From assembly GCA_021816695.1 (NCBI GenBank), contig JAKAXE010000008.1, positions 1 through 52,275 on the forward strand: DNA of 52,275 bases. The letters are read 5' to 3'. Origin of the DNA: a bacterium. Its GTDB lineage: Bacteria > Chloroflexota > Dormibacteria > Aeolococcales > Bog-877. Below are positions 8,989-35,906 of the stretch, one piece after another. Numbering within the stretch: position 1 is the first letter of the stretch; every line of letters starts with the position of its first letter. Made by a program: the position numbers and the translations under genes. The notes under the pieces were generated by a model. It had not been told where the DNA came from. It saw nothing but the letters and a program-made list of their open reading frames with translations, and did not search any database.

Positions 8989-11706
8989 TCAGCCGCGCTC
9001 CACCGCGAAGCGCTTGGCGCCCACTGGCAGCGACGGCGGAGGTGCCTCGATCCTCGCCCGGGAGTCCACCACGTACGCCCCCTTCTCGGTCACCACCACC
9101 GGATTGCACTCCACCTCCGCCAACGCCGGATGCTCCTCGGCCAGGGCGGCCAGGGCGGCGAGCGTCCGGACCGCAGCCTCCACGTTGACCGGCGGGGCGC
9201 CGCGGAAGCCCGTGAGGAGGGGGTAGGTGCCCAGCTCCCTGAGCATCTCGCCGGCATCTGTGAGTGAGACCGGAGCCAGCCGGACCGAGGTGTCGTGGAG
9301 CAGTTCGACCGCGGTTCCGCCGGCCCCACAAGCCACCACGGTTCCGAACTGGTGATCCCGCACGGCTCCCATCAGCAGTTCGACCCCGCCCTCCAACTGG
9401 GGCTGGACCAGGAACGACTCCACCTCTATCTCCTGGTCGTGCAGCCTCTTGGCCATCTCCCGAGCGGCCTCCGCGACCTCGTCCTCGGAGCGGAGGCCGA
9501 GCCGAACCGCTCCCAGTTCAGTCTTGTGGAGGATCGCCCGCCCCGCCCCCTTCAGCACCACGGGAAAGCCCAGCTCCGAGGCTAGCCGGGCGGCACCCTC
9601 GGGGTCTGCGGCCCGTCGGGTGGGCAGGACCTGGATGCCGTACTCCTGGAGGAGGTTGTCCGTCTCCTCATTTCGGAGCCATCGGGGCCCACCACGAAGC
9701 CAGTCGGACAGCAGGGCAGCCACCCGGAGCTGCTCCGGCGCCGGGGTTCCCTCCTCGTCCGCCTCGGGCCGCTCCCGCCACCGCCTGAGGCGCAGCGCCG
9801 CGGCCAGCACCCGCGCAGGATTCTCGGGGAATGGGTACGAGGGCACCTGCACATCCCCGGAACGGAGCTGCTCGGGAACCCCCTCGCTGGTCATGAACAC
9901 GGTGACCACGGGGATGCGGCGCGGCAGGGACCCAGTGGCCTCCCGGATGGCCGCGGCCACATCCTCAGCCCGGGTCACCAGGGGAGGGGTGAAGATCACC
10001 ACCAGGGCGTCCACCCCCGGATCCGAGCTCACCACCTCGATCGCGCGCCGGTAGTCGTCTGCCGAGGCGCTGGCGATCATGTCGACCGGGTTCCCGGTGG
10101 CGGCCTCTGGCGGGAGGAAGCTCTGCAATTGCTCCCGGGTCGGCGGCTGCAGCTCCGCCACTGTGAGGGAGTTGGCCTCCAGGGCGTCAGAGCAGAGGAT
10201 GGCTGGCCCGCCGGAGTTGGTGATGATGCCTACTCTCGGCCCCTGCGGCAGGGGCTGGGTGGCGAGCATGGAGAGCAGGTCGAAGAGGTCGGAGAGGGTT
10301 TCGGTGCGCAGTACCCCGGTGTGCTTGAAGAGAGCGTCCACGGTGGCGTCCGACGCAGCCACCAGGGAGGCGGTGTGCGAGGCGGCGGCCCGGGCCCCGG
10401 CCTTGCCCCGTCCGCTTCTGACCGCCACTATGGGCTTGCGCCGCGACACCCGGGAGGCGATCTGGGCGAACTTGCGCGGGTTGCCGAAGGATTCCAGGTA
10501 CAGCGCCACCAGCTCGGTGCGGGGGTCGTTCTCCCAGTAACAGAGAAGGTCGTTACTGCTGAGGTCGGCCTTGTTGCCCACCGAAACGAAGCTGCTGAGG
10601 CCCAGCCCCAGCGTCCTGGTGCTCTCGATGATGGCAAGCCCCAAGGCGCCGCTCTGGGAGAGGAAGCCGATGGTCCCCGGCCACGGTGTGGAGGGGGCGA
10701 AGGTGGCGTTGAGCCGGACCTCCTCGGCGGTGTTGAGGACCCCCATGCAGTTGGGCCCCACCAGCCGCATCCCCGACTCTCCACAGATGCGCAGCAGCTC
10801 CCGCTGGCGCTCCTGTCCCGCCGGGCCGGCCTCCGCGAAACCGGCGGAGATCACCACCAGCGCCCGCACCTGCTTGTCCACACACTGGCGGGCGACGTCG
10901 TTGACAGCCTTGGCGGGAACACAGACGACGGCCATGTCCACCGGGCCTGGTATCGCGGTCACCGAGCGGTAGGCGGGCACCGACTGGACCACCGAGGCGG
11001 CGGGGTTGACCGGATACACCGGGCCCTGGAACCCGTACTGCAGCAGGTTGTGGAAAACCTCCCCGCCGATGGTGCCGCGGTCCCGGCTGGCTCCCACCAC
11101 CGCGACCGAACGGGGCTCCAGGACGGCTGCGACCGCGGCCGCCGCCGCCTGGCTCTCCCGCTCCAGGAACCGCTGGATGGCCCCCTTGGTGATCTCGGTG
11201 GGGAACTCGACGGCCACCGACCCCGGTTGGGAATCGGTGTGCAGGGCGAAGCCGCTGTTGGCGAAGACCTCGATCATGGCCGCGTTCTCCGGCAGCACCG
11301 AGGCCTCGAAGACGCCGATCCCCAGCCGGTTGGCCGCCTCGGCCAGCTGGGCCAGCATGATCGAGGCCAACCCCTGCCCCTGGTATTCGTCCACCACGGT
11401 GAAGGCGACCTCGGCCCGGCCCGGAGAGGTGGCGATGCAGATGGCGTGGGCCAGCGGACGCGGAGGGTCCCCCTGAAGCGCCAGCAGCCCGAAACTCCGA
11501 CTGCCGTCCACCTGGACCAAAAGATCTGAGGTGGCCTCAAGGTCGACCGCACCGGAGAAGAAGCGCGTGGCCAGCGCCCGCTCGGAGAGGCTGGCCAGCA
11601 GCTGCCGGACCAACTGCCCATCCGCTGGCGTGAGCTCGCGGAGCCGGGCCGTGGACCCGTCCCGGAGCACGACCTCGCTCGCATGGAGAAGCGCCTCGTC
11701 GACCAT
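8989..11706 (-). CDS. GNAT acetyltransferase fused to NDP-forming acyl-CoA synthetase/ATP-grasp (protein acetyltransferase-like)
   Basis: N-term GNAT (VDEYQGQGLASIMLAQLAEAANRLG), then CoA-binding SVAVVGASRDRGTIGGEVFHNLL, SQSGALGLA, C-term ATP-grasp GFPVVLKGAG. Confidence 0.9.
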   Translation of the reverse strand: MVDEALLHASEVVLRDGSTARLRELTPADGQLVRQLLASLSERALATRFFSGAVDLEATSDLLVQVDGSRSFGLLALQGDPPRPLAHAICIATSPGRAEVAFTVVDEYQGQGLASIMLAQLAEAANRLGIGVFEASVLPENAAMIEVFANSGFALHTDSQPGSVAVEFPTEITKGAIQRFLERESQAAAAAVAAVLEPRSVAVVGASRDRGTIGGEVFHNLLQYGFQGPVYPVNPAASVVQSVPAYRSVTAIPGPVDMAVVCVPAKAVNDVARQCVDKQVRALVVISAGFAEAGPAGQERQRELLRICGESGMRLVGPNCMGVLNTAEEVRLNATFAPSTPWPGTIGFLSQSGALGLAIIESTRTLGLGLSSFVSVGNKADLSSNDLLCYWENDPRTELVALYLESFGNPRKFAQIASRVSRRKPIVAVRSGRGKAGARAAASHTASLVAASDATVDALFKHTGVLRTETLSDLFDLLSMLATQPLPQGPRVGIITNSGGPAILCSDALEANSLTVAELQPPTREQLQSFLPPEAATGNPVDMIASASADDYRRAIEVVSSDPGVDALVVIFTPPLVTRAEDVAAAIREATGSLPRRIPVVTVFMTSEGVPEQLRSGDVQVPSYPFPENPARVLAAALRLRRWRERPEADEEGTPAPEQLRVAALLSDWLRGGPRWLRNEETDNLLQEYGIQVLPTRRAADPEGAARLASELGFPVVLKGAGRAILHKTELGAVRLGLRSEDEVAEAAREMAKRLHDQEIEVESFLVQPQLEGGVELLMGAVRDHQFGTVVACGAGGTAVELLHDTSVRLAPVSLTDAGEMLRELGTYPLLTGFRGAPPVNVEAAVRTLAALAALAEEHPALAEVECNPVVVTEKGAYVVDSRARIEAPPPSLPVGAKRFAVERG

Positions 11707-30260: not shown

Positions 30261-30350
30261 GGAGGGATGGCAGAGTGGTTGATTGCGGCGGTCTTGAAAA
30301 CCGCTGAGGCGGCAACGCTTCCGGGGGTTCGAATCCCTCTCCCTCCGCCA
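30261..30350 (+). tRNA. tRNA-Ser (anticodon TGA), CCA encoded
   Basis: Acceptor GGAGGGA/TCCCTCC, anticodon arm GCGGT-CTTGAAA-ACCGC, long variable arm, T loop GGTTCGAATCC, GCCA end. Confidence 0.95.
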
Positions 30351-30435
30351 GTTTGATCTCAAATGGGCCACTGCCGAGGCCGCCACAGCCCGGCCGCCTG
30401 GCCTTGTAAAGTGGCCCCGTACAGCAAAAGGTTCG

Positions 30436-31560
30436 CTAGCCGCCTCGGGCGATCTCGTCGAGGATGTCGGCGGCGGACCTGTGCATTGGCTCTGTCGAGT
30501 GGGAGTACAGGTCCAGGGTGATCGCCACCGTCGAGTGGCCGAGCATGTCGGCCGCGACCTTCGGGTGCACCCCGCGGCTGAGCATGAGGGTCGCGGCAGT
30601 GTGTCGGAGATCATGGAAGCGAATCCGAGGAAGGTCGGCTTGGGTCAGGAGCCGGCGGAAGTGACGGAGCAATTCAGACGGGTCGAGCGGCCCTCCAGAT
30701 TCGGTCGTGAACACGAGGTCTGGGTCTTGCCACTTGGGCCCGGCTAAGAGCCGCTCACTCACCTGCTCGGTACGGCGCTGCTGCAGGGCCGCGACAGCCA
30801 AGTCCCCAAGCATGATTCGCCGCTGAGATCGCGCCGTCTTCGGCGCCTCTCGGACCATCCCTCCGCTACTCCTTGATCGCTGAAGGGTCCCGGTGACCTG
30901 CAATGCCCTCCGGTCGAGGTCAAGGTCCCCCCATCGCAGTGCGAGCAGCTCGCCCTGGCGCATTCCAGTCGTGACGGCCAGCAGCCACAGGGCGGCGAGA
31001 CGGTCCTCTGAGGTGATCGTGAGAAGCTGCCGAACTTGGATGTCGTTTAGAGTCGCCATGTCGTGGTGGGCCATCCGTGGAGCATCGACGAGGTCGGCCA
31101 CGTTCCGCGACACCATCTCCAGCCTCAGGGCTTGGCCCAGCGCCCGGTGGATGACCATATGCACGTGGTGGACCGTCGTTGGGGAGAGGTTGGTGCCCAA
31201 GAGCTTTGAGTAGAGCGACTGCAAATCTCGCGGCTGGAGGGCCTTGAGAGCCTTCTTCCCCAAGGTTGGCTGTAGGTGGACTCTGACCAACTGCTCGTAC
31301 CGCACCCAGGTCCGCTCCCGGACCTGGGGCTTGGCCATCTCGAGCCACTCGTCAAGGAAGTGAGCCACGGTCTCTCTCCCTGACGGGATCGGCACCCCCT
31401 CGTGTCGCGAGTGCAGGGCCGTGTTGAGCTTCTCAGCCGCCTCGTGCCTGGAGTGTGCATAGAAAACTTGCCGGCGTCCGTTGGGTAGGGTGATCGCCGC
31501 GGCCCACAGCTTGTCATTGTGGCGGTATACCGAGCCCTCACCGTGACCTCGCCGGGTCAC
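30436..31560 (-). CDS. tyrosine recombinase/integrase
   Basis: VTTGMRQGELLALRWGDLDL; RIRFHDLRHTAATLMLSRGVHPKVAADMLGHSTVAITLDLYSHS (R..H-x-x-R..H..Y); start taken at GTG 31560 (TRRGHGEGSVYR). Confidence 0.96.
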   Translation of the reverse strand: MTRRGHGEGSVYRHNDKLWAAAITLPNGRRQVFYAHSRHEAAEKLNTALHSRHEGVPIPSGRETVAHFLDEWLEMAKPQVRERTWVRYEQLVRVHLQPTLGKKALKALQPRDLQSLYSKLLGTNLSPTTVHHVHMVIHRALGQALRLEMVSRNVADLVDAPRMAHHDMATLNDIQVRQLLTITSEDRLAALWLLAVTTGMRQGELLALRWGDLDLDRRALQVTGTLQRSRSSGGMVREAPKTARSQRRIMLGDLAVAALQQRRTEQVSERLLAGPKWQDPDLVFTTESGGPLDPSELLRHFRRLLTQADLPRIRFHDLRHTAATLMLSRGVHPKVAADMLGHSTVAITLDLYSHSTEPMHRSAADILDEIARGG

Positions 31561-32411
31561 TGGGGGATGGTCCCTTCTGCATGACCAACAGGCATCCTCT
31601 TGAAGCTCCTGAGCCCGAATGGATAGCTTCGAACTGGAGGTGCCACGAGAGACTCCGGATGGGGCATAACGTACGTGGTCCCCCCGGACGCCGAGTGGAC
31701 TTCGACGGGACTCCCAACCACCCACCCATCGCCACCCGGATTTCGGCGCAACGGGGCAGCGCGAAGGTCGAACCGTATTCGGTCAACTGCCCCTCCACCA
31801 CCGGCTGGGCGCACTTCCAAGACTCGGGAGACCGAGCGAAGTGCCAGCGGGGAACCAGACGGCTCGCTCGCGGATGCCGTGCCCCAGAACGCCACAGTGG
31901 CGCCCAAGGTGATTTGGAGGCGCGAGATGGAGCGTGCAGGCAGCAGGTAGCGGCCCGGGCCGAGGGGGAGAGGGGACATCTTGGTGAGATCGCCTAGCGG
32001 AGCAACGGGCCCTACGGAGTCAAACGAGACCTCTCTCTGGAACGTGCCGATGGCGTCGTTCACGTCTGCGACCCAATCCAGCAACTCAAATTTGTCCCAC
32101 GACGTAGATCCGGCCACTTCGAGCATTTCAATGGTCGCTGCCCGAGGGCCATCGTTCAGGACCGCGCCAGAGGCGCGGACCAGGAGCAACTGGGCGCTGC
32201 CGTCGCGGTCGGTGAAGAGGTCCCCGGCCGCTACAGGGCTCGGCGGCTGACTTGCGAAGGCCGGCGGCTTCAGTGGGGTGTCGCGAGGCGCATCGAGGAT
32301 GAGAGCCACCGCCGGCTGCGTTGCATCAACTCGAGTGTGGTATGCCTGCACCGCGAGAATGACGGTCGCCACCGCCAGGGCGAGGGTCCCCGCTCCTACG
32401 AGCCACTCCAT
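31557..32411 (-). CDS. membrane-anchored hypothetical protein
   Basis: Single N-terminal TM (LVGAGTLALAVATVILAVQAY); overlaps the integrase start; TACCCT box 8 nt upstream of ATG. Confidence 0.7.
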   Translation of the reverse strand: MEWLVGAGTLALAVATVILAVQAYHTRVDATQPAVALILDAPRDTPLKPPAFASQPPSPVAAGDLFTDRDGSAQLLLVRASGAVLNDGPRAATIEMLEVAGSTSWDKFELLDWVADVNDAIGTFQREVSFDSVGPVAPLGDLTKMSPLPLGPGRYLLPARSISRLQITLGATVAFWGTASASEPSGSPLALRSVSRVLEVRPAGGGGAVDRIRFDLRAAPLRRNPGGDGWVVGSPVEVHSASGGTTYVMPHPESLVAPPVRSYPFGLRSFKRMPVGHAEGTIPQ

Positions 32412-32540
32412 GGCCTGTCAGGGTACGACCTCAGGTTCTACTTGCGGCCAGGTTGACGGTGGTGAGATGACCAATGGTTCGGCACGTTGTGATGGCGTCC
32501 GCACGCACGTGGCCGGAAGTGGGACGTAGGATTGGCCGGC

Positions 32541-33242
32541 ATGGGGCTGGATAGCGCGGACAGCGCCGCAGCGCTCAATAGCCAAGGAATTGCCAGGTCG
32601 AGCGGACTGCCGACCGCCCAACTGAAGCACTCACTGTGGGCCACTTGGAGTGAACTCGCGATAGAGCACGAAGCTGCTGCGTGGGGAGCCCGGTCGCGGG
32701 CATTGAGTGCGTCAGGTCCGGCCGACCGCAGCGAACCGATGGAGGATGAATTCAGAGCCTCCCTCCAAGCCGTGACTACAGCGGCCTTTGCTCTGGACGC
32801 GCTCCACGTTCCTGTGAAGGCAATTGCCGAGAGAGATGGAGCAGGCCAAGCGGGGTCGGGTCCTGGGCGAGGCGCTCGCCGAGAGGCCATCCTCAGAGAA
32901 GCGCTGAAAGCAGTCTTCTTGGTGGGCCGGCTAAACAACCGTTGGGTCCGGGAGTTCAAGTGGCTGTTTAACTTGCGGGGTGGCGCCGTTCACTATGGGG
33001 AGTCGGCTGAGGACCCCGCGCCACACCCACTTGGGTTGAGTGTGTCCAAGGCCCACAGCACCTACCGCGCAGAGGCCGCCACACGGGCGGTCGATCTCTT
33101 GATGGAGGTACTGCACTCGGCCGCTGAGCAGCCCAGGCCGAATCTCAAAGACGCGGTCAAATGGTCGGCAGATATTAAGCCTTCCGTGCGGAAGTTGGAC
33201 GAACTGAGGGCTCGCAGCCAGCAGACAACTGACTCAAGCTAG
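32541..33242 (+). CDS. hypothetical protein with HEPN-like R-x4-H motif
   Basis: All-helical composition; WLFNLRGGAVHYGESAEDPAPHP contains R-x4-H; TAGGAT box 8 nt upstream of ATG 32541. Confidence 0.65.
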   Translation: MGLDSADSAAALNSQGIARSSGLPTAQLKHSLWATWSELAIEHEAAAWGARSRALSASGPADRSEPMEDEFRASLQAVTTAAFALDALHVPVKAIAERDGAGQAGSGPGRGARREAILREALKAVFLVGRLNNRWVREFKWLFNLRGGAVHYGESAEDPAPHPLGLSVSKAHSTYRAEAATRAVDLLMEVLHSAAEQPRPNLKDAVKWSADIKPSVRKLDELRARSQQTTDSS

Positions 33243-33779
33243 GTCCAGGGGCGACCCGTCGCCGATCTTATTCAGCCAGCGCTCGATCCGGTCTATATGC
33301 CGCGGCGTCAGGCCTACTTTCTTCTCGGGGTGTACGAGCAGGTGCGGCGTCCGTACGGTTCGGGCCCACCTCATCCCGCTGGAGACCATGCGGGGATCAT
33401 CGTCGACCCAAATGAAGGGCCGGTCCGGCTGTGAGCGCAGGTACTCTTGGACTGCCACCAGTTTGTCCCACGGGCGGACCGGGGCAGGAAGCTTCAGGTA
33501 TGGCTGCCCGGCCCAGCCAAGGTCCTTCGAGAGCCCGTAGGTGTCAACTTCCTTCTCCCAGGTGGAGCACCAGACCCGCTCGACTGGCAGTTCCGTAAGG
33601 CGGGCCACCAGGTTGGGCGCGAAGAAGACGGGCATGTGGATAGAGGGCGACCGGACCCAGGCTGGCCAGCAGGCGGGGAGTGGCCCCATGTGCTCTCCCG
33701 CCACTGGGGAGATCACCCCATCCACGTCGAGGAAGAGGAGTGGGAGAGCGGCGGGGACTGATGCGTTGGCGACAGTCAC
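33234..33779 (-). CDS. HAD-superfamily phosphatase of the Swiss-Army-Knife RNA-repair (HAD_SAK) type
   Basis: LLFLDVDGVISPVAGEH (DxD), VWCSTWEKEVDTYG, RPFIWVDDDPRM, LLVHPEKKVGLTPRHIDRIERWL. Confidence 0.75.
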   Translation of the reverse strand: MTVANASVPAALPLLFLDVDGVISPVAGEHMGPLPACWPAWVRSPSIHMPVFFAPNLVARLTELPVERVWCSTWEKEVDTYGLSKDLGWAGQPYLKLPAPVRPWDKLVAVQEYLRSQPDRPFIWVDDDPRMVSSGMRWARTVRTPHLLVHPEKKVGLTPRHIDRIERWLNKIGDGSPLDLA

Positions 33780-33893
33780 GAGATCAGGGTAGGCCCTTGG
33801 GATCACCAGCGGTCGGGCACGTACAGTCAGTGCCCATGCCCGGCCCCCGTCGCGGACTAACAGTCACCTCCCACCCAGTCGGCGCCGCGGCGA

Positions 33894-34436
33894 TTAACTC
33901 TGGGCGATCTGGTCAACGATGCGATCGATCACCTCAGCCCAATCCACGGACTTGCCGTCGGCATCGACCGTGTGGATGATCCTACGGCCGTAGAACATCG
34001 CCAATCGCGGCCACGCCGCCTGAATGTTGGTCATCTGTCGGTCAAGGGCATCTACCGTGACCGTTCCCCTGTCAATGAAGTGGCGCCGGGCGACCGCCCG
34101 ATCCCCGTCGAACCACCAGGCATCCACGCCAGCCGAGCACAGGGCCTCGACGAACGGCAAGCTGCTCGGCGGGTAGCCCCAGTCAAGTGCGACGGGTCGG
34201 TGAAGCGCGTGGAGAGCTGCCACCAGCCCCGCCTGCCTTCCATGGCTAACGGCTTGGTCCCATTCGGACTGGAGTCCAAGCCGTGCCAACCCGCCGCGCT
34301 CCACGTCCGCAGCGAGAAAGCCGCGATTCTCAGCGAGCCACCTGGCAAAGGTGGACTTGCCCGTCGCCGGCACCCCTGAGATCAGTAGAAGGGGCGAGGG
34401 TGCGGGCCGGTCCGTTGGTGTGGGCTCTCGGTCCAT
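33894..34436 (-). CDS. P-loop kinase (AAA_33/polynucleotide-kinase-like)
   Basis: LLISGVPATGKSTFARWLAENRGF Walker A; TACGAT box 7 nt upstream of ATG. Confidence 0.75.
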   Translation of the reverse strand: MDREPTPTDRPAPSPLLLISGVPATGKSTFARWLAENRGFLAADVERGGLARLGLQSEWDQAVSHGRQAGLVAALHALHRPVALDWGYPPSSLPFVEALCSAGVDAWWFDGDRAVARRHFIDRGTVTVDALDRQMTNIQAAWPRLAMFYGRRIIHTVDADGKSVDWAEVIDRIVDQIAQS

Positions 34437-34469
34437 CGCAGTGATCGTAGGGGTCGGCGCCCACCTCGC

Positions 34470-34907
34470 CTACCGACGCCGGCTGCGCTGCTTCGTCTCA
34501 GCCAGGATCGCGTCGCGGAGTTCTGACCAGCCTGCCCTCCCCTCTCGAAGCCGATCCACCGCCACCCTGACGACATCCGCCTCGCTCACCCGGACCCCAT
34601 CCCGGAGCCCATCGGCCACAATGCGGTGGAGCCACTCCTCCTGCTCAACTCGGAGCTGGACTTGGAGCTTGCGGGCAGCGAAGCTCGGGCGCCCGCCACC
34701 TCCCTTCATCGCCACCTTGGTACGTCGGAGAGCGGTCACCGCCTTATGTGGGGAGGTAGGCACGTCAAGAGATGAGGACGACTCGACACCCCCACCTGCA
34801 TAGGTCGGAGTGTCGGCATTCCCCCGGCGTCCCCCTGCCATAGAAGGAGTCACGCGGCGGGGCCGCTGGATCATCTCCTCAAGGGTGTCCAGCCCATCGT
34901 CAGCCAT
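34470..34907 (-). CDS. putative ribbon-helix-helix partition/regulatory protein
   Basis: Disordered N-terminus, C-term LQVQLRVEQEEWLHRIVADGLRDGVRVSEADVVRVAVDRLREG resembles RHH; overlaps parA. Confidence 0.6.
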   Translation of the reverse strand: MADDGLDTLEEMIQRPRRVTPSMAGGRRGNADTPTYAGGGVESSSSLDVPTSPHKAVTALRRTKVAMKGGGGRPSFAARKLQVQLRVEQEEWLHRIVADGLRDGVRVSEADVVRVAVDRLREGRAGWSELRDAILAETKQRSRRR

Positions 34908-35667
34908 GAGTTGCCTCCAAGACTTCGGCTTGCTTCTGGAGCTCTGGCGCCTCCACGGCCAATGCCTGCTCCACCTTGTGAGCGAGTGACCGAAAGTCGG
35001 CAGCCGCGGCGGCCACGGCTCGGCCCGGGTTCGGAGTCAGGACCAGGGCGGACCGACGACGGCGACGAGGAAGCCAGGGGTAGTCCCCGACGGGTGGGGC
35101 AACCGCGACCCCATAGGTCCGCGCCATGTTCACCAGCGCCTTCAGCTGCGGCCGGATCACGGCTCGATCCCGTACGCGGTTTGGAGCGAGGATGAGGGTG
35201 AATGCAGTGGCCCGCTCGGCCAGCAGGCCTTCCAATGCCCTCAGCTCGGGCCATGCAATACCCACAGGGACCACCACCACGTCAGCCGCTGCCCACGCCG
35301 CGTCGGTCATCGGCACCGCCCCAGGGTGGGTGTCTATGACCACCGGACGGCCCCAAGCCTCGGCCCAGTCCCGCAGACGGCCGGCAACGATGGCAGGGTC
35401 ACCGATCCACTCCGCCAGGCCAGCGGAACTCGGTACCAGGTCGGGCCTCCCCGGACGCCGCAGAGGCCGGGGAGGACTGTCCCGAAGGAGGGCGCGCAGG
35501 AGGCGGCCATCGGACAGCGCGGCTCCCCAGGACCCTGAGGCTCCGCCCCTGTCCCAATCGCAGTCCACCAGGATGGCGCCGAGCGCTCCGGCCAGCTCCA
35601 TAGCCACGGTCGTCTTGCCGACACCGCCCTTGTAGGCGCTGACCGTGACTATGTGTGTGGTATTCAC
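34900..35667 (-). CDS. parA: ParA family partition ATPase
   Basis: IVTVSAYKGGVGKTTVAMELAGALGAILVDCDWDRGGASGSW deviant Walker A; TACCAT 6 nt upstream of GTG 35667. Confidence 0.92.
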   Translation of the reverse strand: MNTTHIVTVSAYKGGVGKTTVAMELAGALGAILVDCDWDRGGASGSWGAALSDGRLLRALLRDSPPRPLRRPGRPDLVPSSAGLAEWIGDPAIVAGRLRDWAEAWGRPVVIDTHPGAVPMTDAAWAAADVVVVPVGIAWPELRALEGLLAERATAFTLILAPNRVRDRAVIRPQLKALVNMARTYGVAVAPPVGDYPWLPRRRRRSALVLTPNPGRAVAAAAADFRSLAHKVEQALAVEAPELQKQAEVLEATHG

Positions 35668-35727
35668 GTCCCCATGGTAACACGTCGGGACGTGAGGAGG
35701 TACGTCTATTAGGACGTGTGGACGTGC
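35665..35727. promoter_or_regulatory. cluster of ACGT-core repeats in the parA promoter
   Basis: CACGTCC, CACGTCGGGACGTG, TACGTC, GGACGTGTGGACGTGC within about 60 bp over the -10/start. Confidence 0.6.
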
Positions 35728-35906
35728 GGCAAGACTAGCGCGGGTGGACGCCGCGCTGGCCGGGCCCAAACCACACTGTCGGGCCACTGTTCCTCACTCG
35801 ACGAGCGGGGCACTGGCTACCTCAGTACCTCACGAGTTGGCGGCGTCTGCACTATCCCTGGGTTGAGTAATGATCGCGTGGGTCAGCCGGGTAAACTGGT
35901 GCCGCC

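Follow-up and report, generated by a model that had tools for sequence, protein, structure and literature searches.

Within a 52,275-nucleotide stretch of DNA (hereinafter the window), which is contig C38 of a Dormibacterota MAG of 2.49 Mb and 89% completeness, three small genes lie side by side near the integrase end of a mobile element: a candidate HEPN-like RNase (P0002), a HAD phosphatase (P0003) and a P-loop kinase (P0004). The arrangement raises the question of whether the three work together, the first cutting RNA and the other two healing the ends, as the original prediction proposed, or whether they are neighbours brought together by exchange of cargo. All four open reading frames of that prediction, including a membrane-anchored protein (P0001), lie where it had placed them (Table 1).

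Table 1. Features of the element in the window and of related elements
Feature	Position	Strand	Remarks
tRNA-Ser	30261-30350		Integration site of the element
Likely attL	30293..30353	+	tRNA-Ser 3' end, 61-bp exact repeat
Tyrosine integrase	30436..31560	-	Phage_integrase, 3e-27
P0001, N-terminally anchored protein	31557..32411	-	Element backbone
P0002, HEPN-like candidate	32541..33242	+	R146-x4-H151; slot-specific cargo
P0003, HAD_SAK_2 phosphatase	33234..33806	-	PF18143; resident gene of the slot
P0004, small P-loop kinase	33894..34436	-	Upstream of the HAD gene, 87 bp apart, same strand
145-aa protein and ParA	34470..35787	-	Backbone on the slot's other side; 89% and 91% identical in G036
Calcineurin-like phosphoesterases by the HAD gene	L016:3408-4397, L017:1047-2204, L015:9458-10456		Three related elements

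The mobile element and its cargo slot

The element encodes a tyrosine integrase, ParA, an AAA ATPase and a MobF relaxase, and is an integrative conjugative or mobilizable element of the MobF type located at tRNA-Ser. The 61-bp repeat recurs exactly on another contig of the genome, C15 (L145 about 9499-9559, G000:C15), where no tRNA was found; the two copies are likely the attL and attR of the element. The integrase probably starts at the GTG at 31560, and the start position is identical in G036 and G046, two genomes that carry the same element family with the same tRNA-Ser end and the same adjoining MFS gene; serS is visible too in G046. Together with G034 these form a comparison set of three related elements, all on draft MAG contigs, where a gene missing from a contig counts for less than one missing from a genome.

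P0001 had been predicted as a membrane-anchored protein within the accessory DNA. The protein stands, and its assignment to the accessory DNA does not: because its gene and the start of the integrase gene share 4 bp (TCAC, 31557-31560) and its place is kept in G036 and G046 at 77% and 80% identity, respectively, sequence comparison assigns P0001 to the element backbone, with the integrase and not with the cargo.

Between P0001 and the integrase on one side and the 145-aa protein and ParA on the other lies a cargo slot (32430-34470). When the window is aligned with G036 at the DNA level, the backbone on either side and the HAD gene match, and P0002 and the kinase are left unaligned. P0003 is 76-80% identical in G036, G046 and G034 (3/3 related elements), and in all three a calcineurin-like phosphoesterase gene lies downstream of the HAD gene, with a small ORF between the two in G034. 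No trace of a phosphoesterase is left in the slot of the window, where P0002, on the opposite strand, occupies its place. The recurrent pair of the slot is HAD and phosphoesterase; HAD and kinase occur together occasionally, and HAD and P0002 were seen once. The HAD gene would then be the stable resident around which other genes are exchanged, and the slot of the window would hold two additions, the P-loop kinase upstream of the HAD gene and the HEPN-like P0002. The locus as a whole resembles the usual exchange of cargo genes in mobile elements, and separating the stable genes (the HAD gene and, in the relatives, the phosphoesterase) from the swapped ones indicates which partners merit joint testing. 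A cargo slot holding a kinase-HAD pair and a separate HEPN-like effector is the best explanation overall, and one that we regard as moderately probable.

P0002 as a candidate HEPN-like RNase

Position-specific GC contents of 0.66/0.54/0.68 for P0002 and 0.59/0.67/0.64 for an antisense ORF (32438-32959) suggest that the P0002 frame is the better coding fit, albeit less sharp than the backbone genes. The protein contains a single R-x4-H motif (RGGAVH, residues 146-151), which by itself does not exceed chance, being present in 45% of shuffles of P0002. What lends the motif weight is solely its retention, within the best conserved segment, in a homolog of 41% identity. This homolog, in the actinobacterium G702 (E 1.4e-31), came from a search of 346 actinobacterial genomes and carries the canonical form of the motif (LRDGAVHPG, compared with LRGGAVHYG in P0002); segment 135-191, which includes the motif, is 58% identical between the two proteins, compared with 40% and 25% for the two preceding blocks. 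A conserved R-x4-6-H is thus found in both P0002 and its only known homolog, a comparison of two sequences.

G702 supplied the only real homolog in a search of plasmids, phages, and viral and genome contigs, with about 1,300 genome look-ups in which some genomes were repeated; the large-sample genome searches scored 7-8 candidates per genome, and absence there is weak evidence. Within the class, P0002 was found in the window only. Weak matches in G050, G468 and G464 were spurious (an ABC substrate-binding gene and TetR regulators), that in G462 is interrupted by stop codons, that in G736 sits in a sugar-transport locus, and that in G816 was put aside at 33% identity over 57 residues.

HEPN domains, the R-x4-6-H RNases, carry the motif between the third and fourth helices (PMC3710099). 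The single-sequence model of P0002 is all helical and likewise places R-x4-H at the end of the third long helix, between the third and fourth, with an insert between the second and third long helices as in the superfamily; its pLDDT of 43 is, however, too low for the model to count as a fold. P0002 also differs from known HEPN proteins in matching no entry in Pfam, NCBIfam, PHROGs, PADLOC or PDB sequences, in having a glycine and not a polar residue after the arginine, and in having no MNT or other known antitoxin adjoining. Many HEPN domains have an E-x3-[KR] motif, which the alignment of P0002 with the G702 protein does not reveal. The missing matches, the glycine, the E-x3-[KR] result and the frequency of R-x4-H in shuffles speak for P0002 being an unrelated helical protein in which R-x4-H is accidental or structural, a possibility that we rate as real but the lesser one: the G702 homolog keeps both the arginine and the histidine, with the usual polar aspartate after the arginine, and conservation is highest around the motif.

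The HEPN call of the original prediction is thus plausible, strengthened by the retained motif and the predicted helix order and weakened by the missing family and PDB matches and an unusable model. We consider it reasonably probable that P0002 is a HEPN protein, and plausible from its sequence that it is a HEPN-like RNase of an unlisted family; if so, the family was missed by the four libraries used. P0002 would be transcribed independently, and motif and helix order make it most likely that the protein is a metal-independent RNase with the role of a toxin or defence effector.

In G034, a 523-aa protein near the HAD and phosphoesterase genes (L015:10604-12175) contains LYEARSAVVHG, an R-x4-H in a HEPN-like context. 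It has no Pfam match, and BLASTP of P0002 against it returned nothing.

The HAD phosphatase and the P-loop kinase

Counted from its GTG at 33806, P0003 is 190 aa long; the ORF had been predicted correctly, and the 181 aa given for it were counted from a later start. P0003 matches HAD_SAK_2 (PF18143) in Pfam over nearly the whole model (E 3e-11, 44.2 bits against a curated cut-off of 27.5), and D27, D29, K115, D135 and D136 are invariant in 37 sequences. Structure modelling, named in the original prediction as a check, gave a HAD fold for P0003 at a pLDDT of 87 but established none for P0002. Among solved structures, the P0003 model matches the HAD domain of Legionella Lem4 best (E 0.028); polynucleotide kinases match it weakly and one chain of the Pnkp1/Rnl/Hen1 structure only at E 0.45. 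The best viral match of P0003 is a hydrolase from Arthrobacter phage TripleJ (E 9e-11). Family match, intact catalytic motifs and model together bear out the HAD_SAK assignment, and the HAD match, as judged from sequence, exceeds chance. P0003 differs from the family's Swiss-Army-Knife proteins in standing alone and not inside a multidomain protein.

P0004, predicted as a separate P-loop kinase, proved to be real: its P-loop (GVPATGKST) is, at the sequence level, beyond chance and conserved in relatives, although all its family matches (to P-loop families) are sub-threshold. Relatives of P0004 match PNK-3'Pase with E values of 0.006 and 0.04, which fall far short of the family cut-off. A kinase precedes the HAD gene in 1/3 related elements, namely G034, where a copy 52% identical to P0004 lies directly upstream of the HAD gene with the order kept.

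T4 Pnkp joins the same two fold types, kinase P-loop and HAD phosphatase. The locus resembles T4 Pnkp and Pnkp1-Rnl-Hen1 in having a P-loop kinase beside a HAD phosphatase, and differs from them in its separate genes, in that no ligase was found among the proteins scanned, and in the lack of Hen1 and of a significant family match. From family and motif, the kinase and the HAD protein would most likely form a split kinase-phosphatase pair that processes the phosphate groups of nucleic-acid or nucleotide substrates. The HAD protein may instead act with the phosphoesterase of the relatives, or alone, the kinase being an unrelated passenger of small-molecule type; we give this a little less than an even chance. 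The HAD-phosphoesterase pair in 3/3 relatives speaks for such a passenger, as do the frequency of HAD genes without a kinase and a P0004 relative in G005 that adjoins a recombinase with no HAD gene there. Against it, two elements, with kinases that have drifted apart to 52% identity, have the kinase directly upstream of the HAD gene and on its strand. The kinase-HAD pair is thus weakly supported, by these two elements.

The kinase relative in G005 (L020:7499-11842) is flanked by a tyrosine recombinase and by a SIR2_2-like protein, the latter below the Pfam cut-off.

Whether the three genes form one module

P0002 and the HAD gene overlap tail to tail by 9 bp (33234-33242), as had been predicted. 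P0002 is convergent to the HAD gene and therefore cannot share its operon. It is absent from the HAD-keeping elements of G036, G046 and G034, and, within the class, from 7/7 other HAD-bearing genomes, one of which has the kinase with the HAD gene. Neighbourhood conservation, which the original prediction had named as a check, thus speaks against it: the three genes do not co-occur in relatives. The G702 copy of P0002 lies on a 5.4 kb contig, where it adjoins a transposase and where relatives of the HAD, kinase and phosphoesterase genes were not found.

The HAD gene is common in Actinomycetota outside the related elements. Flanks of up to 7 kb at 102 HAD loci, taken from genome and viral contigs and mostly from Actinomycetota, contain no relative of the kinase, the phosphoesterase or P0002, and on three plasmids the annotated HAD neighbours are unrelated. 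The 145 HAD-gene neighbours searched against Pfam are diverse; the 25 families listed include neither a HEPN family nor a ligase nor a polynucleotide kinase, in a listing that omits families with fewer members and leaves room for single cases. The scan of window proteins, which covered part of the element's ORFs, turned up no RNA ligase.

A joint RNA cleavage and end-repair module of the three genes is not supported by these data. The original prediction had P0002 cut RNA to 2',3'-cyclic phosphate and 5'-OH ends, which the kinase and the HAD phosphatase would heal as a toxin with its repair. The three genes do lie next to one another, the name HAD_SAK_2 comes from predicted RNA repair proteins, and HEPN RNases leave cyclic phosphates (PMC3710099); set against the convergent orientation, the absence of P0002 from the other HAD-bearing elements and genomes, the solitary G702 copy, the 102 HAD loci and the ligase that was not found, this proposal is highly improbable. 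It is also very unlikely that P0002 founds a new HEPN RNase family while a split, Pnkp-like kinase-HAD healing device shields the element or its host from P0002 or similar nucleases.

Elsewhere, in G015, a genome of the same order, a DUF6602 gene (L018:7968-8756) directly adjoins a HAD gene of 52% identity and is encoded on the other strand.
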